The notes under the pieces are model-generated. The model made no database searches. It was not told the origin of the DNA and saw only the letters and a list, made by a program, of their open reading frames with translations. A stretch of DNA of 64,000 nucleotides from Planctomycetia bacterium (GTDB taxonomy: Bacteria > Planctomycetota > Phycisphaerae > Phycisphaerales > SM1A02), in assembly GCA_005790605.1 (NCBI GenBank), contig SXUI01000003.1:26539-90538 (forward strand). The letters are read 5' to 3'. A program made the translations under genes and the position numbers. Below, one piece after another: positions 5,160-19,903 of the stretch (position 1 is its first letter; every line of letters starts with the position of its first letter).

Positions 5160-6548
5160 ATGCCAGCGACCGTCTCTCCATCGCCCGTCTACAGCAACAT
5201 CCTCGAGATGATCGGCAACACCCCGATGCTTGAGTTGAAGCGATTCGACATCGGCCCCTGCCGACTCTTCGTGAAAATGGAATGCCTCAACCCAGGGAAT
5301 TCCATCAAGGATCGCATCGCGGTCACGATGATCGAAGCGGCGGAGCAGTCCGGCAAACTCCGACCCGGCGGGCGCATTGTTGAAGCCACGGCTGGGAACA
5401 CTGGGCTTGCGCTCGCGCTCGTCTCGAGCCAGAAGAACTATCGCTTGACGGTAGTCATGCCGGACAAGATGAGCGACGAAAAGATTTCACATCTGCGCGC
5501 GATGGGCGCGGAAGTGATTCTTACAAGATCCGATGTTGCGAAGGGGCATCCGGAGTATTACCAAGACATTGCAGAGCGCATTGCGCGAGAGGATCCCGAT
5601 GCATTCTTCGTGAATCAGTTTGCGAACCCCGCAAACGCGCAAGCGCATTACGAATCAACCGCGCCAGAGATTTGGGCGCAGATGGATGGACGCGTCGACG
5701 CCTTCATCGCGGGCGTTGGCTCGGGCGGAACCGTGAGCGGCATGGGGCGCTACTTCAAGGAGCGAAATCCCGCGTGCGAGATTGTCTTGGCGGACCCTGT
5801 CGGTTCCATTCTCGCGCCACTCGTGCGCGAAAAGAAAACTGTTGCACCAGGCGCTTGGCTTGTAGAAGGGATCGGCGAGGACTTCATTCCATCGATTCTC
5901 GACATGACGCTCATCGACAAGGCGTACGCGATCACCGATGCCGAGTCGTTTCAAGTTGCGCGCGATCTTCTCCGCCTTGAGGGCGTGTTGGCAGGCTCGA
6001 GCGTCGGCACCCTGCTCGCCGCAGCATTGAAGTACTGCCGCGAACAAACCACCCCAAAATGCGTCGTCACCCTCATCTGCGACAACGGCGCGAAGTACCT
6101 GTCCAAGATGTTCAACGACTTCTGGATGGTCGACAACGGATTCATTGAACGACCGACCTATGGGGATATCCGTGATCTCATCGCGCGACGGCACTTGAAT
6201 CACGAAGACTTCTGCCTCACTCCGGAAGTCCCTATCGCCCAAGCAATCAAGCGCATGCGCATGTACTCCGTCTCACAGATGGCCGTCCTCGACGCACACG
6301 ACCGCGTCGTCGGCATTCTCGATGAGAGCGATGTGCTGCTCGCACTCGTGCGCGACCGTGATTGCTCGGCGAGCCCCGTCCGCGACTTCATGTCGAGTCG
6401 CGTGGAGACCATCAAGCCGACCTCGAGCGTGAATGATCTCATTCCGATCTTCCGAGCCGATCGCGTGGCGGTTGTCGCCGACAACAAGCATTTCTACGGT
6501 CTCATTACCAAGATCGATCTCATCAACTACCTCCGCAAGCAACTCTGA
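5160..6548 (+). CDS. cbs: cystathionine beta-synthase (PLP domain plus CBS-domain pair)
   Basis: A 462-residue protein. Residues 1-330 are a fold-type II PLP enzyme of the cysteine synthase/cystathionine beta-synthase group: NPGNSIKDRIA supplies the PLP lysine (Lys50), EATAGNTGLALA the substrate loop, and GVGSGGTVSG the phosphate-binding loop. Residues about 335-460 are two CBS domains ending in VAVVADNKHFYGLITKIDL, a regulatory module in cystathionine beta-synthases. The product would condense serine and homocysteine to cystathionine. The next gene, 9 nt downstream, is the matching Cys/Met-metabolism enzyme, which supports reverse transsulfuration rather than plain cysteine synthase. Divergent from rsmJ with only 64 nt between starts. 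Confidence 0.88.
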   Translation: MPATVSPSPVYSNILEMIGNTPMLELKRFDIGPCRLFVKMECLNPGNSIKDRIAVTMIEAAEQSGKLRPGGRIVEATAGNTGLALALVSSQKNYRLTVVMPDKMSDEKISHLRAMGAEVILTRSDVAKGHPEYYQDIAERIAREDPDAFFVNQFANPANAQAHYESTAPEIWAQMDGRVDAFIAGVGSGGTVSGMGRYFKERNPACEIVLADPVGSILAPLVREKKTVAPGAWLVEGIGEDFIPSILDMTLIDKAYAITDAESFQVARDLLRLEGVLAGSSVGTLLAAALKYCREQTTPKCVVTLICDNGAKYLSKMFNDFWMVDNGFIERPTYGDIRDLIARRHLNHEDFCLTPEVPIAQAIKRMRMYSVSQMAVLDAHDRVVGILDESDVLLALVRDRDCSASPVRDFMSSRVETIKPTSSVNDLIPIFRADRVAVVADNKHFYGLITKIDLINYLRKQL

Positions 6549-6557
6549 GTTTCTCCT

Positions 6558-7763
6558 ATGGCTACTGGTTCACATCATCCTGCGACCGACTGCATTCACG
6601 GTGGACAGCACCCCGATCCATCCACCGGCGCGGTCATGCCGCCGATTTTTACGAGCTCGACCTTCATCCAAGAGTCGCCGGGCGTTCACAAGGGGTTTGA
6701 GTACTCACGAAGTCACAATGTCACGCGGTTTGCGTTTGAGCGTTGTCTCGCGAGTCTTGAGTGCTCGGGCCTGAGTGAGTCCGATGAGCGCACGATGGGC
6801 GGATTCGCCTTTGCCTCCGGCCTCGCGGCGATCGCCACCGCGCTCGAGCTTGTCGATGCTGGCAGCACAATCGTTTGCATGGACGATGTCTACGGCGGGA
6901 CGAACCGCCTGTTGAATCGGGTTCGCGCGCGGAGTGCGGGTTACAAAGTCGTGCACGCAGACCTGAGTGACACCAAGAGCGCGACGGCGATCATCAGCCA
7001 ACATCGACCGAAGATGGTTTGGCTTGAAACGCCCACGAATCCGACGCTCAAGCTTGTTGATGTGCGCAGCGTGTGCGAAGCGGCCAAGTCGGTTGGTGCG
7101 ATTTCTGTCGTCGACAACACCTTCGCGACGCCCATGTTGACGCGGCCACTGCAACACGGCGCGGACATCGTGATGCATTCCACGACGAAGTACATCGGCG
7201 GACACTCCGACACCGTAGGCGGCGCACTCGTCACTTCGTCTAAGCCAATCGCTGAACAACTGCGATTCCTACAAAATGCAATCGGCAGCGTCATGGGGCC
7301 CTTCGATGCGTACCTCTCGCTTCGCGGACTCAAGACACTGCACTTGCGCATGGAGCGCCACTGCGCAAGCGCACTCTCGATCGCAACGAGGCTCGAAGCG
7401 CACCCCAAGGTTGCAAAGGTTGTGTATCCGGGACTCTCGAGTCATCCACAGCACGCGCTCGCGTCTACGCAAATGCGTCTCGATGGAACCCCGGCGTTCG
7501 GAGGCATGATCACCATCTTCCTCAAGGGCGGCATCGCAGAGAGCCGTCGCTTTCTCGAGGCGGTCCACTTGTTCGCGCTTGCCGAAAGCCTTGGCGGCGT
7601 CGAGAGTCTCATCGAACACCCTGCGATCATGACACATGCGAGCGTGCCCACCGCGATGCGAGAGCAACTCGGCATCAGCGATGCACTCGTACGCCTCAGT
7701 GTCGGTATTGAGCATGTTGAGGATCTGTGGAATGACCTCAACCACGCGCTTGCGAAGGTCTAA
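6558..7763 (+). CDS. cystathionine gamma-lyase/gamma-synthase family PLP enzyme
   Basis: A 401-residue Cys/Met metabolism PLP-dependent enzyme (fold type I). Seen: ETPTNPTLKLVD, VVDNTFATP (Asp186 contacts the PLP ring nitrogen) and HSTTKYIGGHSD with PLP lysine Lys211. The family includes cystathionine gamma-lyase, gamma-synthase and beta-lyase, which sequence inspection alone cannot separate. The 9-nt spacing after cbs favours gamma-lyase, producing cysteine from cystathionine. I leave the symbol empty for this reason. The stop is followed 20 nt later by a secreted protein gene on the same strand. Confidence 0.88.
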   Translation: MATGSHHPATDCIHGGQHPDPSTGAVMPPIFTSSTFIQESPGVHKGFEYSRSHNVTRFAFERCLASLECSGLSESDERTMGGFAFASGLAAIATALELVDAGSTIVCMDDVYGGTNRLLNRVRARSAGYKVVHADLSDTKSATAIISQHRPKMVWLETPTNPTLKLVDVRSVCEAAKSVGAISVVDNTFATPMLTRPLQHGADIVMHSTTKYIGGHSDTVGGALVTSSKPIAEQLRFLQNAIGSVMGPFDAYLSLRGLKTLHLRMERHCASALSIATRLEAHPKVAKVVYPGLSSHPQHALASTQMRLDGTPAFGGMITIFLKGGIAESRRFLEAVHLFALAESLGGVESLIEHPAIMTHASVPTAMREQLGISDALVRLSVGIEHVEDLWNDLNHALAKV

Positions 7764-7783
7764 CTCCGCGTTACCTTGAGATC

Positions 7784-8695
7784 ATGCGTCTCTTCTGCTG
7801 CGTCACGGCCTGCTTGCTTGCGTCCGCCTCCCAAGTCGCACGCGCGGACGATCCACCAGTTTCGCCGCCCGCGACGCTGCTCGCTGGTCCCGCTGCAGGC
7901 GAGATGCAACGGAGTGATCCCACGCTTCTCACGCTTGACTTCGACGGCCACCTTGAGCACATCGTCGGAGAACCTGGATTTGAAGCGATGCGCCGGATTG
8001 GTCTCACGCCCGAGCAGCAGGCGGCGCTCTCGAAAGTAGACCAAGAACGAACCACGCAGTTCAACGCGATCGCGACGCGGGCGCTTCCACAGTTGATTGC
8101 CCTCGAGGGCATCGAAGCGAGATTGCAAGGGTCCTTCCGAACTCGCAGCGGGGCGCTCATTGATTTGGCCCGCGCGTACCTCGCAACCCGCAAGATCGTG
8201 CACCGCGCCAGCGCGCTCGATGCTCTTGCAGCGACAGGCGCCTTTGACGCGTCGCAACTTGCCACTGCTCGCAGCATGGTCGCCGCATACGAGAAAGCGC
8301 TTCGCCTCGAGATCGCGAACGCCACACCAAACCTCTCGGAACAGGAACTAGAGCGACGCGCACACATCGCGATGTTGCTCGAGCTCCTCCAAGAAGGCAT
8401 CGCGACACGAGCGAAGGCAGGCGAAGAGGAGTTTGATCGGCTCAGCGAGGCCGTGCAACTCACACCCGCGCAAGCGGAGCGCGTCAAATCGATCTTCGCT
8501 CCGATCGCGGTGCAGGAGTACCTTGGGAATCGAGTTGGACTTCTCGATCGAGTGCATGCCATGCTTGAAGCGAGCCGCGAATTGACCGCGGTACAACGCG
8601 AACGCGCGTGGAAGTACATCAAGGACGAAGCTCGCGCGGTCGAGCCATCGCCGTCAGGGAACCCCGCTCGGGGTTTGCCCACGTTGCGCGACTGA
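7784..8695 (+). CDS. secreted helical protein of unknown function
   Basis: A 303-residue protein with a signal peptide (MRLFCCVTACLLASASQVARA, cleavage before DDPP). The mature part is almost wholly helical and rich in Ala, Glu and Arg. It contains two similar segments, IGLTPEQQAALSKVDQE (about residues 73-90) and VQLTPAQAERVKSIF (about 225-240). These resemble the LTPEQ segments of LTXXQ/Spy-like periplasmic proteins. The resemblance is suggestive only. The last 42 nt overlap the end of the convergent gene, and a hairpin lies within that overlap. Confidence 0.7.
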   Translation: MRLFCCVTACLLASASQVARADDPPVSPPATLLAGPAAGEMQRSDPTLLTLDFDGHLEHIVGEPGFEAMRRIGLTPEQQAALSKVDQERTTQFNAIATRALPQLIALEGIEARLQGSFRTRSGALIDLARAYLATRKIVHRASALDALAATGAFDASQLATARSMVAAYEKALRLEIANATPNLSEQELERRAHIAMLLELLQEGIATRAKAGEEEFDRLSEAVQLTPAQAERVKSIFAPIAVQEYLGNRVGLLDRVHAMLEASRELTAVQRERAWKYIKDEARAVEPSPSGNPARGLPTLRD

Positions 8696-9505
8696 GGCAT
8701 TCCAGCGACCATCGCGCCAAGTGGCTAATGTTGGATCCACTCGGAAGAGCGTCCCGAGGTTTGAAACATCAATCTCGATGAGAGGTGCCCCTTGTGTCAC
8801 GGCGACATCGACGGACACCGCCCGTGGAGAAGGTGTAATGAGCGCCGCCTCAAGCAGCAACATGCGACGGAGTGTTGCATTGTCGAGCGTCGGTCGAACA
8901 CCGCCGCGTAGGGTTCGGCATTCACGCAAGAACCCCTCAGCTCCGCCGGGAATCATCGCGTCGTGTTCTTCAAGGAGCGGCTCGGCGTCAGCGGCGCGCA
9001 ACGTGGCAAGAGCCTGCTGGCCCTTGCCAAGTCGATACAACGAAAGCGCGCGAACAAGAGCCAGTGATTTCGTCTCGTCGGCCGCGGCGGATGCGCGCTC
9101 ATATCGCACGCCACCAAGAAGTGCTGCGGCGGCCTGCATTCGGCGAGCCTCGAGTGGCGTCGATGCGATCGCTGCACGCGCGAGCGCGGCACTGCGACCG
9201 AGTCGGTCACGATCGAGGGCGCCTGCGAGTCCGAAGAGTTCACGCGCAAGCTGACGCTCCGCGTCCGTCGTCGCAGCGTCAACGACCTCCTCTCCGAGCA
9301 AGAAGTACTCCATCGGTCGAAGAGGATTCAACGCGATGAGTCGAGGCTCCCACTTCGCGGTCGGTCGTGCGGAAATCGGCGCGGGCGCGATCGGCGCGGT
9401 TTGACCGTACAGCGACGCTGACGCGAAGTGCAGGAAGCAGACCGCAGAGCCAACACACAACGGATTCGTCACGAACGGGCGTAGGTTGAACATCCTTCGA
9501 CTCAT
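8654..9505 (-). CDS. secreted TPR-like protein, last gene of the ExbBD/VWA operon
   Basis: A 283-residue protein starting at the ATG that overlaps the stop of the preceding gene as ATGA. A signal peptide is visible (hydrophobic FVTNPLCVGSAVCFLHFA, cleavage near LYGQT). The mature domain is made of Ala/Leu/Arg-rich helix pairs of TPR appearance, such as LALVRALSLYRLGKGQQAL, then a C-terminal stretch with beta character around VDVAVTQGAPLIEID. No enzyme motif seen. Its position at the end of a chain of overlapping genes suggests it works with the ExbB/ExbD complex, probably in the periplasm. Confidence 0.75.
   Translation of the reverse strand: MSRRMFNLRPFVTNPLCVGSAVCFLHFASASLYGQTAPIAPAPISARPTAKWEPRLIALNPLRPMEYFLLGEEVVDAATTDAERQLARELFGLAGALDRDRLGRSAALARAAIASTPLEARRMQAAAALLGGVRYERASAAADETKSLALVRALSLYRLGKGQQALATLRAADAEPLLEEHDAMIPGGAEGFLRECRTLRGGVRPTLDNATLRRMLLLEAALITPSPRAVSVDVAVTQGAPLIEIDVSNLGTLFRVDPTLATWRDGRWNASVAQRGQTPSGVP
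8660..8675. terminator. bidirectional hairpin inside the overlapping 3' ends of two convergent genes
   Basis: AACCCCG (8660-8666) pairs with CGGGGTT (8669-8675) around a 2-base loop. It lies inside the 42-nt region where the convergent genes 7784-8695 and 8654-9505 overlap, so it is translated on both strands. The position fits a shared terminator, but the T tracts are very short. Confidence 0.45.
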
Positions 9506-12501
9506 GCTGCATCCTCTCGATCGACCGCTTCCGCTTCGACATTCACGATTGCCATTCGCGCGAAAGCGGTGAGCGTGACCGCAAGCTGCGCGGCTGCGCT
9601 CTGCGCGGTGCTGCGGGCAAGTGCCGCCTCGGTCAATATCTCTCGCGCTGCAGAGATGCATTGCGGACGCCGAGCGGCTTCGACCGCCGCAGCTTGCTCA
9701 AGCAAGGAGGCGGCGTCGGCAACCGCGCGTTGCATGGAGCCATCGGCCAGTCCGCGACGCGCAACTCGCAACCTCTCAAGTTCCTGACTTGATGCGGGGA
9801 ACGGCTCGGAGAGGAACCGTTCCTCCGCCGCGACGCGAAGCGCGGACGCAAGCATCGCCATAGAAACATCGAGCGCTGGAGCGAAGTCGAAGGCGGCGGA
9901 GTTGGGGGCGTAACGCACAGTTAGATTGGTCGCGCTTGCGGCAACGCGCGCTGCAAGGCGATCGATTGCAGCCTCTCGGCTCGCTTCGAGCGAGAGCACG
10001 CGATCGAGAAGTGCCGCGCGCGCGGGCACGGCCCAGTCTCGGCCTGTGAACTCCCGGTGGAGCAGCGCCGCGAGAAAACCTGCAAACTCCTCGCGCGGCT
10101 TCGACTCCGTCAACGCGTCGAGCACCGCGAGAAGCACAGTCCGCCCGTTCGCAAACTTGTCAGCAATCGCTCCCTGCGCTTCTCGGCGAATGTCTGCTGC
10201 GCCGCCTGCGAATGCCTCTCGCGCGAGCACTTCCGCATCGCGAGGACCAAGATCTCCCGTCGCTGGAAGTGCACGCAGCGCAGCAATGAGCCGAGCGCGT
10301 GACTCCATGTTCAAGCCAGGCTGCGTGAATTCGGTCGCCCAATCTCCATCATTCACGCCCGACGGACGAAGTCCGCTCTCGCCCGCAAACGGCGCTTCCA
10401 GTGCACCGCGATCAAACTTCAGCGCGGTGCTCGCATCCTGCATGGCGACCTCAGCTTCTCTCGACTTTCCAGACTCAAGCAATCGCACGGCAAGCACGCA
10501 TTGCAACGCACCATCCGCGATCGCAAGTGCCTCGACATCATCCTGCGGACGAACAGCGCGCGCTGCAAGCTCCGCGACTGTGTTGCGAAGGAGATCAAGC
10601 GTGCCGCGAGGAAACGCGAGCCTCTCCCCTTCTTCGCCTTCAACCGACTTCGGCCACGCGGCGAGAATGCGCTGGAGCGCAGCATCTCGTCGGTTCGCAT
10701 TCGCGTCCACAGGCAGCACCATCTCCGGCGAAAACCAAGCGATGCGATGATGACGGTCAAGCATGCTCGTCAAGACCCAAAGCCTCGTTGCGAGAATCGA
10801 CGGGTTCGCAAACCACGAACCAAAGGCGGTGCGTGCTTGATCGCCTGAGACGCCGCGATTTGACCAATCGATATCTGCGATGAGACGACCGAGCACATCG
10901 CTCGCTCCACTCTGCAAGTCGATTGGCGCAGCCCCTTGCAGAATCGCCTCGATTGCGCGAAGTCGCGCCGACTCCCCAAGCTTCACATTGGTCGCCGCGG
11001 CGTCGACTGCCTCGAACCATCGCGACCAATCATCAAGAGTAATGTTCGCGCTCCCCGCATCCGTCGCATCGGCGAATCCACTCGCGTCGCGCGTCAGACT
11101 CGCGATTGCCGTCACTCCGAATCGGTTGCTTCCAGCACCCGATGCGATCGCAATCCCCTCGCGGCGCAATGACTCGCGCGCGGCCACCGCGACTTCACCT
11201 GGCACTTCTGGATCACCGAGCAATTCGGCGGTCATCCCCGCTGCGAATGCGGCCTGCCACACAACCTTCCAAGGAGTGACACTTGAGCCGCTCGTCGATT
11301 GCAGTGGAAGCCCGCGCAACGCGAGCAAGAGGGCGTGCGCGCTCTCGTCGCCGTGCGTCGCCCTTGCGACTTGGATCATGCCCGTGATGAACTCTGCGCG
11401 AAACGCGCCAGAAACCGCCCACGATTCACCTGCAAGTCGACAGCACTCGGCGAGATTCGATGCGTTCACTCCATCGAGCCGGCCGCGATTCGTTTTCAAC
11501 TTCCGCGTGAGTTCATCGAGCGTCGTTAAGAAGTCTGGCCATTGATTCGCAAGCAAGAGCGTTGATGGCGGAGTTGCGCTTGACGCGAATCCCGGCGCAC
11601 GCGCGTACTTCGCTGGAGACGCAAGCGCCTCAATATTCGTATCTGGTGGCGCAAACTTCTGCGCGAGTGCTGCAGCGGCCCGCTCACGCTGCGTCGATGC
11701 ATCCTCGACCGCAATCGCGGGCAACGGAACGACATGAGTTTTTTCTGGGGGCTCCGCGCCGCGGACGATCATCCACACAATCGCGAGCGTGACGCTCACG
11801 GCGACGGTACCGAAGAACGCCGTCAACCGCAAAGCCGACCACGGCGAGTTCGCTCGCATTTCTTCGCCAATCGAGCTCGCGATGCGATCGACCGCAGCCT
11901 CAGCCACATTCGGCTTCTTCACGGGACGCGCGTGCAGTTGTTCCGCAGACACGCCGACGGAAGACAGATCTTTGCGAAGCACCGCGGCGCCGCCATCTCG
12001 CATGAACTTCGCGAGCCCAGCGACGACAAGTTGCAACCCCTCATTACTCACTCCATGTTCGGCGCTCAGTGCGGCTAACTGCGCGGCCGTCTTGGGGTTC
12101 CACCCTCCACCGGCAACCAAGATCGTCAACACGACGCGATCGAACTCCGTCAGATGTTCCTCGGTCACACCGCCCTTGGGGCGAATCGGTGGGTTCCCTT
12201 GCGACCCTTGCACTGATCGCTCCATGCGCTGCTTTGCAAGAGGATGCATCGGCATCGTGCGCGGTTCACGCACGAGTGAGATTTCAAGTTCAATCTCGCG
12301 CGCAAGCGCCTCGAGCTGCGCGATCGCGCGCGCGGCATCGGGAGAATCGCTCATCGGATGACTTCGCACTTGTGCGATTCGCCGCGCGAGCGCCTCTTCA
12401 ACGAGTCCACTGGTAAGCCCGTCAGCGCTCAGGCCAAGGATGCCTCGCGCGCTGCGGTCCTTGCCAATGGCAATGAATCGATCCATCGCCGAGAGGCTCA
12501 T
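9502..12501 (-). CDS. large single-span membrane protein with a possible J-domain-like N-terminus
   Basis: A 999-residue protein; the ATG at 12501 overlaps the previous stop (ATGA). Residues 7-75 include RGILGLSADGLTSGLVEEALARR and a conserved-looking HP step, which resembles a degenerate J-domain (DnaJ-like) helix pair without a clear HPD. This is a weak inference. A single membrane span lies at about 224-246 (LTAFFGTVAVSVTLAIVWMI), with the roughly 750-residue C-terminal part expected in the periplasm. That part is helical and Ala-rich, without a recognised enzymatic motif. As part of the ExbBD/VWA operon it could be a scaffold joining cytoplasmic and periplasmic parts. Confidence 0.75.
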   Translation of the reverse strand: MSLSAMDRFIAIGKDRSARGILGLSADGLTSGLVEEALARRIAQVRSHPMSDSPDAARAIAQLEALAREIELEISLVREPRTMPMHPLAKQRMERSVQGSQGNPPIRPKGGVTEEHLTEFDRVVLTILVAGGGWNPKTAAQLAALSAEHGVSNEGLQLVVAGLAKFMRDGGAAVLRKDLSSVGVSAEQLHARPVKKPNVAEAAVDRIASSIGEEMRANSPWSALRLTAFFGTVAVSVTLAIVWMIVRGAEPPEKTHVVPLPAIAVEDASTQRERAAAALAQKFAPPDTNIEALASPAKYARAPGFASSATPPSTLLLANQWPDFLTTLDELTRKLKTNRGRLDGVNASNLAECCRLAGESWAVSGAFRAEFITGMIQVARATHGDESAHALLLALRGLPLQSTSGSSVTPWKVVWQAAFAAGMTAELLGDPEVPGEVAVAARESLRREGIAIASGAGSNRFGVTAIASLTRDASGFADATDAGSANITLDDWSRWFEAVDAAATNVKLGESARLRAIEAILQGAAPIDLQSGASDVLGRLIADIDWSNRGVSGDQARTAFGSWFANPSILATRLWVLTSMLDRHHRIAWFSPEMVLPVDANANRRDAALQRILAAWPKSVEGEEGERLAFPRGTLDLLRNTVAELAARAVRPQDDVEALAIADGALQCVLAVRLLESGKSREAEVAMQDASTALKFDRGALEAPFAGESGLRPSGVNDGDWATEFTQPGLNMESRARLIAALRALPATGDLGPRDAEVLAREAFAGGAADIRREAQGAIADKFANGRTVLLAVLDALTESKPREEFAGFLAALLHREFTGRDWAVPARAALLDRVLSLEASREAAIDRLAARVAASATNLTVRYAPNSAAFDFAPALDVSMAMLASALRVAAEERFLSEPFPASSQELERLRVARRGLADGSMQRAVADAASLLEQAAAVEAARRPQCISAAREILTEAALARSTAQSAAAQLAVTLTAFARMAIVNVEAEAVDREDAA

Positions 12502-15176
12502 GGCGCGCCTCCAGTCTGTGGCGCTTGTTTGCTGCGCGCTTCCGTTTCTAATGCTTCGAACTTCGCCTTCCACTCGCCTGGCCCAAGGTCTGGGTGCAGC
12601 TTGCGATGCTGCTCGAGCACCGCGATGCTCCGAGCGGCGTCGATGCGAAGGAGGACGCGAGCAAGATCATATTTCGCGCGAAACCATGGGTCGGTTCGCG
12701 TTGGGACTCCTGACACAAGCGCCTTGAGTTGCTCGACGGCGACTTCGAGTTGGCCACAAGACTCCGCGAAGAATGCGGCGTTCTGAAGCACCCCTGCTTC
12801 GCGCGTTCCAGCGGCGAGCACTGCTTGCGCGATCAACAGTCCTTGCTTGGCTTCATCCGGTGACGCACTCGCGAGCACCAGTTCCTTTCGCGCGTCAAGC
12901 AGCGTCCGAAGCACGGCCATGTGTGATGCAGACTTGACTGCTTTCTCCACGCCACCTTCACGCGCGATAAGCGCATCGCCTGCGCGAACGCTCGTCGCAA
13001 CAAACGCACTGCGCCGTGGGTCATCCTTCGCAGTCGCGCGTCGAGCGAGTTCCGCTCCACGCAGTGCCAATCGAAGCGCTGCATCGGCCCAAATCGGAGT
13101 CGCTTGAGGCGACTCAAACTGGGCAAGACCACTCTCCACAAGTTCCCATTGGTTCTGCGAGATCGCGAGCTGCAGTCGCCGATACGCCAGTTCTTCGCGA
13201 GCTTCTGAGAGTTCAAACTCCCCGCGCGTCACTGCGGCATCAATCGCGACGAGCAGTTGTGCCGCGAAAGAGGTATCTGCCACTTCTGGCGCGAGAGCAA
13301 CTTCAAGCGCCTGACGCGCGATACCAACGCTGCCTGCAGGAAGTCCTGGAGCGGAAGGGACATCTCGAAGCGTCAACAGTACGCCGATGTATCGCCGTCC
13401 AAGTGTTGTTCGCTCCGCGACATCACGGGAGGCGCGGAAGCAACGGTAGAGTCCGCCAATCGCGGCGCGGCGTGAAGTATCAAACGATGGTTCGGTGCTT
13501 GGCACCGACAACAACTTCTCGATGTCTGCTGCATCCGGAAGCGGATCTGCTTGGACGCGACGCACGAAGAGTTCAATCACACGCATCGATGCTGGGAATC
13601 GACGGAGAAATGCATCGCTGCGCGCGGTCAACTGCGCTTCGAGCGCGGTGCGCTCCGAACCTTGCAGCGTGCGCGCCAACGCATCGAGACACGCGATCGC
13701 TGCCCACGCCGCATCTTCGCCCCGTTCTCCGGTCAACACGCTCGCGAGTTGATCGAACGCTTCCGCGGCGTCGCGATACTCGTGCGCGCCTCGAAGACAA
13801 TGCGCACGCATGAGCCGACAACCATCGCGCGCATCGGGGTACGCATCGGCGTCGGTCGCAGCGAGCGCGGCGTCGAGCCCCTGCAGTGCTTCGCGATTTG
13901 CGCGCATCGCATGCTCGGTCATCGCGGTATCAATGCTCGCCCCGTCGGCACGCGCGTTCTCTTCTGCAGCCTGCAACGTCTCATCAGCAACCCGCGCCGC
14001 GTCGTAGCGCGCGAGCGACGCCACATAACGGGCGACGAAGGTGTCTCCTTCAAGTCCGCGACCGCCGAACTGATCGACGATGTCGCGAACCTGCGCGAGT
14101 TCCCGCCGCGTCGCGAGCTGCGCGATTGCATCTTGTGCGAGAGCGAGCGCCTCCCCGCCGTCGGTGCCTTGTGTCACCGCCCGAAGCCCACCTGCGGCTG
14201 CAACTCTGAACCACGCCGTTTCAACTGTGCTCTGCGCCGCGAGCGCGCGGAGGAGCTTCTTTGCCGCGGTCCAATCCTTCGCGCGAATCGCCGCTGCCAA
14301 ACGCCATCCATCGAGTCGTGTACGAATTCCTTCGAAGGCAGAAGAGACTTCAAGCAATTGCAGCCATCGCGACGCCTCGCCATACCCTTGCGTTTCAGCC
14401 TTCGCCAACCCAAGTCCTAAGATCGCTGACGCAAATGCCTCCTCGGTTCTGAGGTCGAGGGAAACCTCCGCTGGATCCATATGACCGTTCCGCGCGCCGG
14501 CGATATCGAGGAAGAGTTGCGCCGCGGCCCCGGAATCCTCGACGGACTCGCTCAAGAGCCCCTTGTAAAGCAAACCCCACGCTCGCAAGAATCGGCACTC
14601 CGTCGCAATCGCTTCTGCACGCTGAATGTCCGCTCGCGCGAGATCTTGGGTGAGCCCGACGAGCGAATCGATGCGGCGGTCGAGGTCCTGCGCGCGCTTC
14701 AACGATTGCGCTTGCAGCTGCTCCAATGCTGGAAGCACGACGCCGAGTTCTGCGAGCGCTCGCGCGTTCGCCTCGCTCGGCACACGAACCGCCGCTCGCG
14801 TGTCTTCTGCGATTTCCGCGGCCACTCGGTATCGCGCTCGCGAGATCGCAAGACCAAGCACATCAGCAGCGAATCCCGCGCTCTCAGTCAACGCTCGCTC
14901 GGCTCGTTCAAGGAGCGCGTCGCGCTCAACACCGCGCGCGGAAAGATCAAGCAACCGCGCGTACGTCGTCGCGAGTCGCTCCCGCACGCGCTTGAGTTCA
15001 TCACCATTCGAGTCTCGTGCGACAAGTTCAAGCCTTGTGGCGAGAAGCCCGTCAAGTCCACGCGCCTCGAGCCAATCCGCGAGTTCATCCGCGCGCACGG
15101 GTGATGCGCAAAGTCCAACCACAACGCCAGCAAGGGCGAAGGAGTGTCGAAGCATTGCGCGCGGATGAAAGTACAT
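12498..15176 (-). CDS. secreted TPR-rich protein (about 890 residues)
   Basis: An 892-residue protein with a signal peptide (hydrophobic FALAGVVVGLCASP, cleavage near VRADE). ATG at 15176 or at 15155 is possible; the first lies 10 nt after the exbD stop. The mature protein consists of repeated helix pairs typical of TPR solenoids, for example MRAHCLRGAHEYRDAAEAF and YDLARVLLRIDAARSIAVL near the C-terminus. TPR solenoids mediate protein contacts. It overlaps the next gene by 4 nt. Function unknown; a periplasmic partner of the ExbB/ExbD motor is the contextual guess. Confidence 0.8.
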   Translation of the reverse strand: MYFHPRAMLRHSFALAGVVVGLCASPVRADELADWLEARGLDGLLATRLELVARDSNGDELKRVRERLATTYARLLDLSARGVERDALLERAERALTESAGFAADVLGLAISRARYRVAAEIAEDTRAAVRVPSEANARALAELGVVLPALEQLQAQSLKRAQDLDRRIDSLVGLTQDLARADIQRAEAIATECRFLRAWGLLYKGLLSESVEDSGAAAQLFLDIAGARNGHMDPAEVSLDLRTEEAFASAILGLGLAKAETQGYGEASRWLQLLEVSSAFEGIRTRLDGWRLAAAIRAKDWTAAKKLLRALAAQSTVETAWFRVAAAGGLRAVTQGTDGGEALALAQDAIAQLATRRELAQVRDIVDQFGGRGLEGDTFVARYVASLARYDAARVADETLQAAEENARADGASIDTAMTEHAMRANREALQGLDAALAATDADAYPDARDGCRLMRAHCLRGAHEYRDAAEAFDQLASVLTGERGEDAAWAAIACLDALARTLQGSERTALEAQLTARSDAFLRRFPASMRVIELFVRRVQADPLPDAADIEKLLSVPSTEPSFDTSRRAAIGGLYRCFRASRDVAERTTLGRRYIGVLLTLRDVPSAPGLPAGSVGIARQALEVALAPEVADTSFAAQLLVAIDAAVTRGEFELSEAREELAYRRLQLAISQNQWELVESGLAQFESPQATPIWADAALRLALRGAELARRATAKDDPRRSAFVATSVRAGDALIAREGGVEKAVKSASHMAVLRTLLDARKELVLASASPDEAKQGLLIAQAVLAAGTREAGVLQNAAFFAESCGQLEVAVEQLKALVSGVPTRTDPWFRAKYDLARVLLRIDAARSIAVLEQHRKLHPDLGPGEWKAKFEALETEARSKQAPQTGGAP

Positions 15177-15186
15177 CAGGTGTTAC

Positions 15187-15600
15187 TCACCGAAACGGAA
15201 CATAGGTGACACTCTTGTAACCAGCGTCATGGGCAGCTTGCATCGCTGCAGCTGCAAACCCGAAGTCAACGCCATCCCGAACTCGCACGAAAAGACTGTC
15301 CTCTGGGTTCAATGCACGAAGGGCTTCGGTGAGCGAAGATTTGTCTGCGTAGGTCGCTCCGCCGACGCGGTACAGGCGCACGCCGCCCTCTTCGAGCACA
15401 TCCACATTCTGAGGTTCGAGATCGGTGCGCTTGTCGCTTCCTCGTTGCGTGGCCAGTTGTGGATCGAGTTGCGCTTCACGCGACGCAGCCGACTGCGTAA
15501 ACAGGAAGTAGCCAAGCAAGAGAAATGTTGCGTCGATCATCGCCGCGAGATTGATCTCTGGCTTTCGGTCGCGTTCACTTCCTGCTCGTCGGAATCTCAT
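15187..15600 (-). CDS. ExbD/TolR-family protein, second copy
   Basis: A 137-residue ExbD/TolR protein: short cytoplasmic N-terminus, one transmembrane helix at about 18-36 (AAMIDATFLLLGYFLF) with the proton-relay aspartate at Asp23, and a periplasmic domain ending FAAAAMQAAHDAGYKSV. The usual Pro before the aspartate (NMTPMID type) is replaced, giving LAAMID, so it diverges from the first copy. It starts inside the stop of the first exbD (ATGA). ExbD dimers work with ExbB pentamers, so two different ExbD proteins suggest a heterodimer. Confidence 0.88.
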   Translation of the reverse strand: MRFRRAGSERDRKPEINLAAMIDATFLLLGYFLFTQSAASREAQLDPQLATQRGSDKRTDLEPQNVDVLEEGGVRLYRVGGATYADKSSLTEALRALNPEDSLFVRVRDGVDFGFAAAAMQAAHDAGYKSVTYVPFR

Positions 15601-16025
15601 TTCGAGGCTCCCTCCGTCGCAACTCGGACCGCCACCACGCCAGCCTGCGAGAGACGCTCAAGGACACCATTGAGGACATCGGTTCGAGCAGCGCGGTCGG
15701 CCCGCACGAGCGGTCGTAACTTCGTCACGCCACCTTCGTTCTGCGCAGCTGCTTCGGCGACGAGTTCGCCAATGCGATCGAGTGAAACCGCCTGCTCATT
15801 CACAATGATGCTTCCGTCGGCGAGCACATTGAGGACCACACCCGCCTGCTCTGCGGTCTTCACTTCTTGACCCGGTTCCTTCGGCAACGCCATTTCTGTT
15901 CGCGCCTGCTGCGCCGCTTGTCCGGTGACGAGGAAGAAGATGAGCAATTGAAACACAATGTCGATCAGCGGCGTCATGTCGACGACGGCGGCGCGGGAAG
16001 AGCTATTGCGGGGAGCGAATCGCAT
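15597..16025 (-). CDS. exbD: ExbD/TolR-family protein, first copy
   Basis: A 142-residue protein. The canonical ExbD signature VVDMTPLIDIVFQLLIFFLV sits at 14-33, with the essential aspartate at Asp22 in the membrane helix. The periplasmic domain contains VLADGSIIVNEQAV, the typical ExbD/TolR strand pattern. The start at 16025 matches this signature; the frame is open further upstream into exbB but that part is a shadow. It couples the proton motive force to ExbB and an energy transducer, here probably the VWA protein of the same operon. Confidence 0.92.
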   Translation of the reverse strand: MRFAPRNSSSRAAVVDMTPLIDIVFQLLIFFLVTGQAAQQARTEMALPKEPGQEVKTAEQAGVVLNVLADGSIIVNEQAVSLDRIGELVAEAAAQNEGGVTKLRPLVRADRAARTDVLNGVLERLSQAGVVAVRVATEGASK

Positions 16026-16050
16026 ACTGGAATGACTACAAACTTCGCGG

Positions 16051-16764
16051 TTATGCGCGCGCGACCTTCGTCTTGCTACTGCTCTCGATAATGGCAACCA
16101 CTTCTTCCATCTCCGCGGCGGCGTCGCCTGCGAGACGATCCACGCGATTGCGGAAGAAGCTGTAGAGCGACACGCACGGGATGGCAACGACAAGACCTTG
16201 GAAGGTCGTGATGAGCGCGATCGCGATGTTGTAGGCCAGCGCCTCGTAGTAGGTGGAATCATGGGCCGCGCTCGACGCGACCGTTTCAAACGCGCCGATC
16301 ATGCCCTGAACCGTTCCAAGAAGTCCGAGCAGAGGTCCGACCGAACCAATGACGCCGATCACATCCATGGTGCGGTAGAGCCGCGCGGTCTGCTCAACCC
16401 CACTCTCCTCAAGAGCGCTCTTCATTTCAAACGCGCCGAAGGGCGAAGCGATGAATCGCTTGAGACCCGGCGCAAGCGTCCGCAGGAAGTAACAGTCGTT
16501 CGCCGGCAGTTGCGCATACTGCAACGCCTGCTCGAACTGTCCGCGAGCAAGCAGTTCTTTCACTGCATTGATTCGATCTCGCGGGAGCTGGACACTCGCT
16601 CGGATCTGCACAAAGTGAATGATCACGAATGCGAGAGCCACGATCGACAACAGCACGATGATGTAGCCAATCACACCGCCGCCCGTGATGAACTTGAGGG
16701 CAGAACTGCCCGTGCTCGTTGGACTCGCGGTATCAGCGGCTGCTTGAAGAAGAAGGTGCGTCAT
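16051..16764 (-). CDS. exbB: ExbB/TolQ/MotA-family proton channel protein
   Basis: A 237-residue protein with three membrane helices at about 31-51, 134-156 and 178-203. The family core is present: SVGPLLGLLGTVQGMIGAF (141-159) in helix 2 and LITTFQGLVVAIP (184-196) in helix 3, which line the proton path with the ExbD aspartate. The N-terminus carries a short extra periplasmic segment (MTHLLLQAAADTAS). The start overlaps the preceding stop as ATGA. Two exbD genes follow, giving a complete ExbB-ExbD stator unit. Confidence 0.93.
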   Translation of the reverse strand: MTHLLLQAAADTASPTSTGSSALKFITGGGVIGYIIVLLSIVALAFVIIHFVQIRASVQLPRDRINAVKELLARGQFEQALQYAQLPANDCYFLRTLAPGLKRFIASPFGAFEMKSALEESGVEQTARLYRTMDVIGVIGSVGPLLGLLGTVQGMIGAFETVASSAAHDSTYYEALAYNIAIALITTFQGLVVAIPCVSLYSFFRNRVDRLAGDAAAEMEEVVAIIESSSKTKVARA

Positions 16765-17981
16765 GGAGTTTCGTTGCCTTTCAAATCTATCTCTGCGTCT
16801 CGCGTGGCAATCACGCGGGGCGCTGTATCTTTCATCGTTGTCTGCAGCGGCGTTCTCGCCGCATCCGACTCAATCGCGTCAAGCGCATCGTCTTGCATCA
16901 ATCGCTCAAGAAGCTGCGCACTCTTGACATCGCCCCGCGCGCGACACGCACTTGCGGCCTCTCGAAGTGCGAGTCGACCGAGCGCGGTCTCGCCTTCGAT
17001 GACGGCGGCGCTGAGCAGTTCGAGCACGCCCATTTCCTGTGATTCGGCGGACGCGCTTCCAACGAGCGCTCGACCGAGCACCATGGATTTCCACGCCAGC
17101 AGGAATCGAGGTGCTTCGCCTCCACCTGCGTTGCGCGCGAGCGCGAGGAATCCCTCGGCGAGTCTTGCGCGATCTCGGTCACTCTGTGCCAAGGCGAGTT
17201 CTTCGAGCGTCGCAAGCAACTGCTCCGCTACCGACGCGCCAGCGCGAGGCTCAACATGTTTGGGCGCGTTGCGCAGCAAACGCGCGAACCGCTCATCCAT
17301 CGACGAACCTCCCGTCGAATGCCCCGCGCGGACTTCGAGGACCTGCGCGGCGCGCGCCGCAGTCTCCGAGGTCGCGAATGGCGTGATTTCACTTGAAAAG
17401 AGCGTTGCTGGATCAAGCATGGGTGGCAGCGAAGCGAAGACTGAGTCAGCAGGCGCGTGCTGCCCTGCCTTCATCGCAGCAACATGCATCCATGGTTCAA
17501 GCGCGCTCACCGAATCACCTCGCGCGAGCGCGCATCGCAGCAACCCTTCCGCGGTGATGTACCCAAGGTCACACTGGGGATTACGCAGGGAACTCCACAC
17601 TTCTCGCAAGAGCGGCTCCGCGAACTCGTAGTCTCCTCGCACGACACGCGTCCGCGCTCGCCAAAGTGTTTCGCCCAGCTGCAAACCAGCATCGATACCC
17701 GCAGGAACGGTCGAACCAGTCACTGCGCGCACTTCGTCCCACCGCGCAAACTGTTCGATTCCCCCGACTCCCTTCAACCGGATACCTGATTCTTCGACGC
17801 TTGCGCTTGCGGCCTCGAGTGTGCTCGCGCCACCTCGCAACTCAACCCGGACATCCGCGCGCGCTGCCGATACGCAAAAAACTCCCGGCAAGGCGAGAAA
17901 AACGAATGCAAGGCTGGTCGGACGATCTGGACGCATGGGCTGTGGAATCTGAAACATCATTCGTACTGCATGCTCGATCAT
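16761..17981 (-). CDS. secreted protein between the VWA and exbB genes
   Basis: A 406-residue protein. The ATG at 17981 overlaps the VWA stop (ATGA); an internal ATG at 17936 would give a tidier signal peptide (hydrophobic TSLAFVFLALPGVFCVSA, cleavage near ARA-DVRV). The segment after the signal (VRVELRGGASTLEAASASVEESGIRLKG) looks like a small beta domain, followed by Ala/Leu-rich helix pairs of TPR appearance. No catalytic motif seen. Periplasmic location and operon position suggest it bridges the VWA protein and other components. Confidence 0.78.
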   Translation of the reverse strand: MIEHAVRMMFQIPQPMRPDRPTSLAFVFLALPGVFCVSAARADVRVELRGGASTLEAASASVEESGIRLKGVGGIEQFARWDEVRAVTGSTVPAGIDAGLQLGETLWRARTRVVRGDYEFAEPLLREVWSSLRNPQCDLGYITAEGLLRCALARGDSVSALEPWMHVAAMKAGQHAPADSVFASLPPMLDPATLFSSEITPFATSETAARAAQVLEVRAGHSTGGSSMDERFARLLRNAPKHVEPRAGASVAEQLLATLEELALAQSDRDRARLAEGFLALARNAGGGEAPRFLLAWKSMVLGRALVGSASAESQEMGVLELLSAAVIEGETALGRLALREAASACRARGDVKSAQLLERLMQDDALDAIESDAARTPLQTTMKDTAPRVIATRDAEIDLKGNETP

Positions 17982-19018
17982 GGGGACGCGGGAATCGTGA
18001 TGCGAACTCCACCGGTCACGGGGACGAACCGAAACACGCCCTCATTTTCACGCGCGATCTGTTCAAGTCCCGCGCGCCCCGCTTCCGAGCCGAAGCAGAT
18101 GGTGTTGATGATCGACGCGCGACGCTGCTTGTGATTGAGTCGAGTCACTTCATCGGGACCCTCGCCGGGGATCTCACCATCAGTGAGGAAAAAGATGACA
18201 TCCGGTGATGCGGGAAGTTCATACACGCGCTCGAAGGAAGTCATTGGATAGGTGCCTCCACCCGGGGATTGCTCCTCGATCCACTTCTTCATGCGCAAGA
18301 TGTTCCCTTTCGATGCTCGGACCCAACTCTCCTCCCAGTCTGGGATTCGGCGGTCATCCGAAAAGAGCACCACATAGAAACTCGCGAAGTCAGGAAGCGC
18401 CGCGATCGAACGCTTCAACTCATTCATCGCGACCGTGAATCGATCATCCATCTGCATCGAACCGGAAATGTCCACGATGAACGCGAATCGAGTGCCTCTT
18501 CCCCCCACTCCGAAGAAGCTCGTTCCTCCGCCACCGCGTCCAGAACCAATCCCGATCCCTTGTCCAGCGCCACCCGGCCCCACGATGCCTCCGGGCCCGG
18601 GCGCTTGCAACATGCCGAAACTGTTCTGCGTTGGATCATCGCTTGCGAGGTCTGCGCTGAGTGCCGGAATCTCATCGGGGTCCGGCATGATCTCGCCCGC
18701 CGCGAGCGGCGATGGATCTGGCAGTTCTACTTGCTCATCGGGAGCCACTTGCTCTTGCGCATCGGCAAGATTGACTTCAACGGGCGCGTCATAACTTCGC
18801 GCGTCAACTGCCGGCTGGCGGTACCACCAGAGTGACAACATGACGGAGATGTGGACGACAAGCGAAAGCGCAAAGGCGAAGAGGAGGAGATGAACCCAGT
18901 ACTCGCGGCTGTACCGCCGCTGATCCCCGAGCGCGCGAATGCCCTTTGCCAATGCGCGCCCCTGCTCCTTCACGGGAGCAGCAGCAAGATCGCGAGTTGG
19001 ACTTGCCGGATTTTGCAT
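17978..19018 (-). CDS. VWA-domain protein on a TonB-like membrane anchor
   Basis: A 346-residue protein. Residues 1-40 are a short basic cytoplasmic tail. One membrane helix spans about 42-66 and contains SLVVH (Ser52, His56), the same Ser-x-x-x-His spacing that TonB uses to engage ExbB/ExbD. Then comes a Pro/Asp/Glu-rich stretch (78-130) and a Gly-rich linker (140-175), followed by a von Willebrand A domain (177-340). The metal ion site DISGS (Asp183, Ser185, Ser187), Thr256 and Asp280 (FLTDGE) is complete. The start at 19018 is the first ATG giving this architecture; the open frame continues antisense across pyrH and frr but is not believable. First gene of the operon with exbB and two exbD. 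Confidence 0.88.
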   Translation of the reverse strand: MQNPASPTRDLAAAPVKEQGRALAKGIRALGDQRRYSREYWVHLLLFAFALSLVVHISVMLSLWWYRQPAVDARSYDAPVEVNLADAQEQVAPDEQVELPDPSPLAAGEIMPDPDEIPALSADLASDDPTQNSFGMLQAPGPGGIVGPGGAGQGIGIGSGRGGGGTSFFGVGGRGTRFAFIVDISGSMQMDDRFTVAMNELKRSIAALPDFASFYVVLFSDDRRIPDWEESWVRASKGNILRMKKWIEEQSPGGGTYPMTSFERVYELPASPDVIFFLTDGEIPGEGPDEVTRLNHKQRRASIINTICFGSEAGRAGLEQIARENEGVFRFVPVTGGVRITIPASP

Positions 19019-19177: not shown

Positions 19178-19903
19178 ATGCCAATGAGTCGCCCCAAGAA
19201 CCGAATTCTCCTCAAGATCTCTGGCGAGAGCCTCGCGCAGCCTGGCCACTTGGGCATCAGTACGGAAGAGTTGCGGATCATCGCAAAAGAAATCGCTAGT
19301 GCCGCCGAACTCGGCGGCGAGATCGCGGTGGTTGTCGGCGGCGGGAACATCGTGCGCGGCGCAACCCTCGCCGCAAGCGGGATCATCCATCAGTCCACCG
19401 CGGACTACATGGGAATGCTCGCGACCGTCATGAACGGGATGGCGCTCAAGGAAGTTCTCGAAGAACTCGGCCGGCCCGCTCGCATCATGAGCGCGATCAA
19501 TGTGCCCGCCGTTGCGGAGCCCTTCATTCGCGCTCGCGCCGTCCGACACCTCGAAAAGGGCCGCGTGGTCGTCCTCGTCGCCGGAACGGGGAATCCCTTC
19601 TTCACGACAGACACCTGCGCGTCCCTCCGCGCGATCGAGCTCAACGCCAGCATGCTCCTGAAGGCTACGAAGGTTGACGGCATCTACTCCGCCGACCCCA
19701 AGATACACCCCGACGCGACCCGCTTCGACCGCCTTACTTTCGCGTCCGCGATCGAAAAGAAACTTGGCGTGATGGACCTCACCGCGCTCACGATGTGCAT
19801 GGAACACGACCTGCCAGTCTGTGTCTTTGATTACCGAGTCGCAGGCAATATCAAGCGAGTCGTCAGCGGCGAACGCATTGGAACCCTTGTGACGAAGTCC
19901 TGA
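19178..19903 (+). CDS. pyrH: uridylate kinase PyrH
   Basis: A 241-residue amino-acid-kinase-fold UMP kinase. Seen: ILLKISGESL at the N-terminus, VVVGGGNIVRG for phosphate binding, LVAGTGNPFFTTDTCA, and KVDGIYSADPK. It phosphorylates UMP to UDP and is allosterically controlled by GTP and UTP in most bacteria. The length is normal. It is followed by frr after 57 nt, the usual pyrH-frr pairing, but rpsB and tsf are not upstream. The divergent VWA operon starts 159 nt away. Confidence 0.97.
   Translation: MPMSRPKNRILLKISGESLAQPGHLGISTEELRIIAKEIASAAELGGEIAVVVGGGNIVRGATLAASGIIHQSTADYMGMLATVMNGMALKEVLEELGRPARIMSAINVPAVAEPFIRARAVRHLEKGRVVVLVAGTGNPFFTTDTCASLRAIELNASMLLKATKVDGIYSADPKIHPDATRFDRLTFASAIEKKLGVMDLTALTMCMEHDLPVCVFDYRVAGNIKRVVSGERIGTLVTKS

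Follow-up and report, generated by a model that had tools for sequence, protein, structure and literature searches.

A candidate eight-gene operon in a planctomycete that may place a VWA protein on an ExbB-ExbD-type motor

Results and discussion

Organization of the gene block

Eight consecutive genes lie on the minus strand of the window, the whole 64,000-nucleotide stretch of contig SXUI01000003.1 (assembly GCA_005790605.1, Planctomycetia bacterium) that was analysed. All of them fall within 8654-19018 and are read from 19018 down to 8654. The first encodes a VWA protein of 346 amino acids (A, 17978..19018) and the second a protein of 406 amino acids (B, 16761..17981). These are followed by three motor-type genes, encoding an ExbB/TolQ-type subunit (C, 237 aa, 16051..16764) and two ExbD/TolR-type subunits of differing sequence (D or ExbD1, 142 aa, 15597..16025; E or ExbD2, 137 aa, 15187..15600). 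Three further genes, for F (892 aa, 12498..15176), G (999 aa, 9502..12501) and H (283 aa, 8654..9505), complete the block.

The genes are tightly packed. With the most likely starts, which for ExbD1, G and H are 16025, 12501 and 9505, five junctions are 4-nt ATGA overlaps: A/B (17978-17981), B/C (16761-16764), D/E (15597-15600), F/G (12498-12501) and G/H (9502-9505). The other two are gaps of 25 nt (C/D) and 10 nt (E/F). Upstream, a divergent open reading frame that by eye resembles UMP kinase begins at 19178, and downstream a convergent open reading frame ends at 8695; the block is thus bounded on both sides as a single candidate operon.

The VWA protein and its anchor

Protein A has one transmembrane helix (residues ~41-66) carrying Ser52 and His56, then a linker, and finally a VWA domain, predicted to be periplasmic, with a full MIDAS metal site. 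The domain itself matches Pfam weakly (E = 5.3e-4, below the Pfam cut-off), and the MIDAS residues, D183, S185, S187, T256 and D280, are conserved in 122/122, 121/122, 122/122, 116/122 (Ser in five others) and 121/122 rows, counts that include duplicates. Of the 99 residues in the linker, 16 are Asp/Glu and 13 are Pro, and its final part is rich in Gly; the median linker length is 95 over the 98 VWA proteins that are distinct at 90% identity. No TonB_C match was found in protein A by Pfam search, and its transmembrane helix contains no Asp.

The anchor motif stands out within the helix. Among the same 98 proteins, Ser52 and His56 are each kept in 93, whereas of the 27 helix positions compared the one that ranks next, a Leu, is kept in 67. 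The Ser-x3-His spacing is that of the TonB/TolA motif. An NCBIfam TonB model also matches residues 47-121, the anchor and linker, albeit weakly (E = 0.006). Asn replaces the His in three distinct proteins; two of these (L108, L109) carry exbB in the operon, and the contig of the third ends before that point. L060 has Leu in place of the His, and the gap at Ser/His in the row for L161 comes from cropping of that row. At the final Ser position of SHLS the 98 proteins vary, and the window copy has R. Just after the helix, a stretch resembling V-E-V/I-E-F/L-A is partly conserved in sequence. The first-pass annotation had described eight minus-strand genes with six of seven junctions overlapping or under 12 nt, and a first protein with an N-terminal helix, an acidic and proline-rich stretch and a VWA domain with a full metal site; both the gene coordinates and the residue conservation agree with it.

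Motor subunits

The window copy of C matches MotA_ExbB (7.3e-25), and its closest solved structures are TolQ and ExbB. D and E match ExbD (1.3e-20 and 4.2e-10, respectively) and no other Pfam family; the MotB plug and OmpA domain are absent from both. The ExbB helix threonines are conserved in 102-103 of 104 rows, as are the transmembrane aspartates of the two ExbD proteins in 98/98 and 100/100; duplicates are again included in these counts. Since the Asp is invariant in both subunits, both ExbD proteins look able to take part in motor function.

Partner proteins

Pfam gave no match for B, F, G or H as encoded in the window, and profile searches assigned no known family to B or H. Signal peptides and membrane orientation of the four proteins were assigned by eye, and on that basis B, F and H have signal-peptide-like N-termini. 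Four TPR models match within the B family, each in one of 50 members. F is predicted to be an all-helical solenoid (AF2 model, pLDDT 92.7) whose structural matches are mostly TPR superhelices; some members of its family match TPR families directly, TPR_6 being found in 9 of 48. G is less well modelled (pLDDT 81.5). Its N-terminal ~220 residues, predicted to be cytosolic from the orientation assigned by eye, form two small domains and are followed by a single transmembrane helix (~224-247) and a predicted periplasmic, HEAT/ARM-like helical part of ~700 residues. In the N-terminal domain (window 12265-12501, minus strand), L-x-L, A-L and H-P are invariant in 17 members. By eye this domain resembles a J-domain, an assignment to which profile searches gave no support, and we do not adopt it. 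H is a conserved last gene.

Conservation of the block

Profiles of the eight proteins were run on the window and on 33 stretches from relatives, mostly long contigs, which we chose from the 59 further genomes in which a VWA protein was matched. Two further samples were 18 stretches from a phylum-wide search with F and 79 named loci collected by VWA similarity, the best 79 of 558 confirmed candidates; some genomes are in both the 33-locus and the 79-locus set, and the two counts therefore cannot be treated as independent. In the neighbourhood comparison proposed in the first-pass annotation, A-G occur in order in 26 of the 27 loci examined from families f1, f2 and f4 of the host order. All eight genes are present in 23 of these 27, H being cut by the end of the stretch in some. 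The single exception, G054, lacks C-D-E. In families f5 and f6, seven loci have the VWA gene and six of these also have ExbB and the ExbDs; B, G and H are not recognisable in any of the seven, and F is present in only two.

The larger samples extend this picture. Among the best 79 of 558 candidates, 42 loci have all eight genes and 29 end at a contig edge and agree as far as visible; four have no recognisable B, and another four lack C-D-E. The phylum-wide search with F returned two f73 loci outside the host order that keep the block (L074 with all eight genes, L073 with no recognised G), one more f1 stretch with all eight, and A-C-D-E-F in three loci of further families outside the host order; the remaining 12 of the 18 stretches hold F, C-D-E, both or none. 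The full block is therefore a feature of part of the host order and a few other families, and the VWA-ExbB-ExbD-ExbD set is distributed more widely. The named relatives are mostly metagenome bins of Phycisphaerales and other Planctomycetota, and the few labelled as other groups may be mislabelled bins.

A proposed envelope machine

Taken together, the products of the eight genes likely assemble into a single envelope machine powered by protons, with the VWA protein occupying the position held elsewhere by TonB or TolA. From the conserved Ser/His pair of the anchor, the intact VWA metal site, the intact key residues of the adjacent ExbB and ExbD genes and the conservation of the block, we infer with good support that the VWA protein replaces TonB on ExbB-ExbD, as had been suggested in the first-pass annotation.

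In such a machine, five ExbB subunits would surround an ExbD1-ExbD2 pair and pass protons, as family membership and the intact Thr and Asp residues suggest. The VWA anchor would use Ser52 and His56 to dock laterally on the ExbB ring, as TonB and TolA do, a placement consistent with the conservation of the motif and with published AF3 models of the class. The linker of ~100 residues could then convey motor movement to the VWA domain, whose metal site may hold a partner in the periplasm; the first-pass annotation's description of this domain as adhesion-type is putative at most. As B and F are fused into a single protein in four relatives, the likeliest partner would be an assembly of the two, in which B is attached to the TPR solenoid predicted for F. 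More speculatively, G, which is predicted to span the inner membrane and to have a cytosolic part, might link the machine to an intracellular signal or structure, and H might complete the periplasmic part. The object pulled is probably the outer membrane or the wall.

Motor and Tol-type genes elsewhere in the genome

The genome that contains the window is a 99% complete draft in 80 contigs, with four MotA/ExbB matches: the block copy and one each on C14, C48 and C49. The match on C14 belongs to a second, shorter vWA-ExbB-ExbD-ExbD set (L045, 6792-9641). The next open reading frame there (9638-12091, 817 aa) overlaps the set by 4 nt and is weakly F-like at its C-terminus; similar sets occur in G058 (L179) and G012 (L184). 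The ExbB on C48 (L046, 9712-10458) has no ExbD neighbour, a lone ExbD lies at C57:73495-73767, and MotA/MotAB is on C49, a contig separate from that of the block. No TonB_C, TonB_2 or TonB-dependent receptor-barrel match was found in this genome by a search that a diverged TolA domain could escape; among the 19 genomes searched, TonB_C was found in nine, TonB_2 in five and the receptor barrel in ten. Since both ExbBs with ExbD neighbours sit in vWA sets and TonB-type and receptor matches are absent, the motors with ExbD in this genome seem to serve vWA proteins only.

These data bear on a Tol-like function, in which the VWA protein would be a TolA stand-in acting in outer-membrane attachment and constriction at division, with F and B as a CpoB-like TPR partner. 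We regard this as a possible but tentative reading. The absence of TonB-type and receptor matches and the pairing of both ExbD-associated ExbBs with vWA genes are consistent with it, as are two lipoprotein-like open reading frames with an OmpA (Pal-type) domain in the same genome. A housekeeping role would also suit the VWA match found in 60 of 61 genomes, the host's own included, the weakest of which may be other VWA proteins. However, the search could have overlooked a TolA domain that has diverged, the genome is a draft at 99% completeness, and the Pal-like genes lie on contigs other than that of the block. Moreover, relatives carrying the VWA set include genomes with TonB_C (9/19) and with receptors (10/19), and the distribution of the set therefore does not distinguish this function from others.

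Loci lacking the motor triplet

Five genomes bear on how closely the VWA protein and the motor are coupled. In four assemblies (L133, L144, L147 and L157), B and F form one open reading frame of 1237-1294 aa and the operon lacks exbB-exbD-exbD. Each of the four has a VWA-bearing second set and another exbB-exbD-exbD triplet elsewhere, which adjoins no VWA gene in the stretch seen. The ExbB proteins of these separate triplets nest in the clade of the eight-gene-block type (system 1; 82 tips, support 0.953), and we read the VWA protein of these genomes as still depending on a motor encoded elsewhere. In two of the loci that hold such a separate triplet, L220 and L221, it adjoins an open reading frame of ~747 aa. 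In L126, an extra triplet (6083-7875), whose ExbB is also within the system-1 clade, lies upstream of a full eight-gene block.

The fifth genome, G054 (L044), keeps B, F, G, H and a VWA protein with Ser-x3-His. Its ExbB-family matches number three, all outside the system-1 type: one, close to an OmpA match, resembles MotA, and the others belong to another clade. G054 is a counter-case to strict VWA-ExbB coupling. The two matches of the other clade are close paralogues (L170, L171); a relative has a single copy (L175).

Alternatively, the VWA protein might not be moved by the motor at all and might instead assemble or gate the ExbBD channel or tether the TPR proteins, the operon reflecting shared regulation only. 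The G054 gene set and the separation of the triplet from the VWA operon in four genomes both point that way. Yet the Ser-x3-His motif is intact in all five genomes, and a mere tether would not need it. We consider this explanation unlikely.

Relation to known systems

The proposed machine shares with TonB-ExbB-ExbD and TolA-TolQ-TolR its motor family, the Ser-x3-His anchor and a periplasm-spanning linker, and differs from both in having a VWA domain in place of the C-terminal domain, two ExbDs and four extra proteins. The first-pass annotation was aware of no published system composed in this way, a statement that does not hold for the class. Force transducers with a vWA domain have been proposed for the PVC group, with planctomycetes named (PMC12204202; Mol Biol Evol 2025, msaf138), and the core idea of a vWA force transducer on an ExbBD-type motor is thus already in print. 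According to the accessible part of that paper, many members have an SHLS anchor, and the class has a ~100-residue linker (domain II) and a C-terminal vWA domain. In the gene neighbourhood lie a tolQ-like gene, two tolR-like genes that differ from each other, and a gene for a TPR protein. The same text presents AF3 models of the vWA transducers, identifies a beta strand after the helix as the motor box and gives the function as unknown.

The window block resembles these Tichowtungia-type transducers in its Ser/His anchor, linker length, vWA domain, tolQ gene, tolR pair and TPR gene. Unlike them, it has the VWA gene first, where the accessible text of PMC12204202 puts it downstream, and it has extra genes, with a B-F fusion in some relatives, where that text mentions one TPR gene. 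The TPH-vWA family treated in the same paper likewise has a membrane-anchored vWA protein beside a TolQ-like gene; as described there, it has no ExbD and carries an Asp in the vWA helix, in contrast to the two ExbDs and Asp-free anchor found here. Our literature search found no paper on the eight-gene make-up, the B-F fusion, the second set or the loss of the triplet. The additions made here are these four features and a host genome without TonB-type or receptor matches.

Comparison with Myxococcus gliding raises the possibility of a surface-motility or attachment machine. AglR, AglQ and AglS comprise one ExbB-like and two ExbD-like proteins, the make-up on which we base the comparison, and act with Glt proteins in a system that also has a TPR partner and VWA proteins, according to the accessible part of PMC4488436; the authors of PMC12204202, in the text accessible to us, also suggest gliding. 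Nevertheless, the Myxococcus VWA proteins described in PMC4488436 are outer-membrane lipoproteins (CglB; CglD by prediction), whereas here the VWA domain is on a protein predicted to dock on the motor, and the named relatives are metagenome bins. A function of this kind seems to us quite improbable. Finally, import in the manner of TonB, with the VWA domain opening a channel in the outer membrane, would fit the TonB-like anchor but is very unlikely given that the block contains no receptor gene and that no receptor-barrel match was found in the host genome.

Implications

Returning to a VWA transducer in place of TonB or TolA, a bolder version, which we put forward with considerable doubt, is that in Phycisphaerales-type bacteria such a transducer has appropriated the ExbBD motors entirely. 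A trans-envelope machine of eight proteins, including a HEAT/ARM-like subunit that reaches the cytosol and a TPR scaffold, would then do TolA's outer-membrane pulling in cells without TonB and TolA-type domains. The present analysis gives the class of vWA force transducers a concrete form in a unit of eight genes, with its partner proteins named and specific residues (S52, H56 and the MIDAS) singled out, and the natural B-F fusion shows which parts of that unit probably touch. In the host genome, ExbBD motors seem to serve only vWA proteins. If the proposed machine is correct, it would extend the cargo of 5:2 motors driven by proton-motive force beyond TonB, TolA, flagella and gliding.
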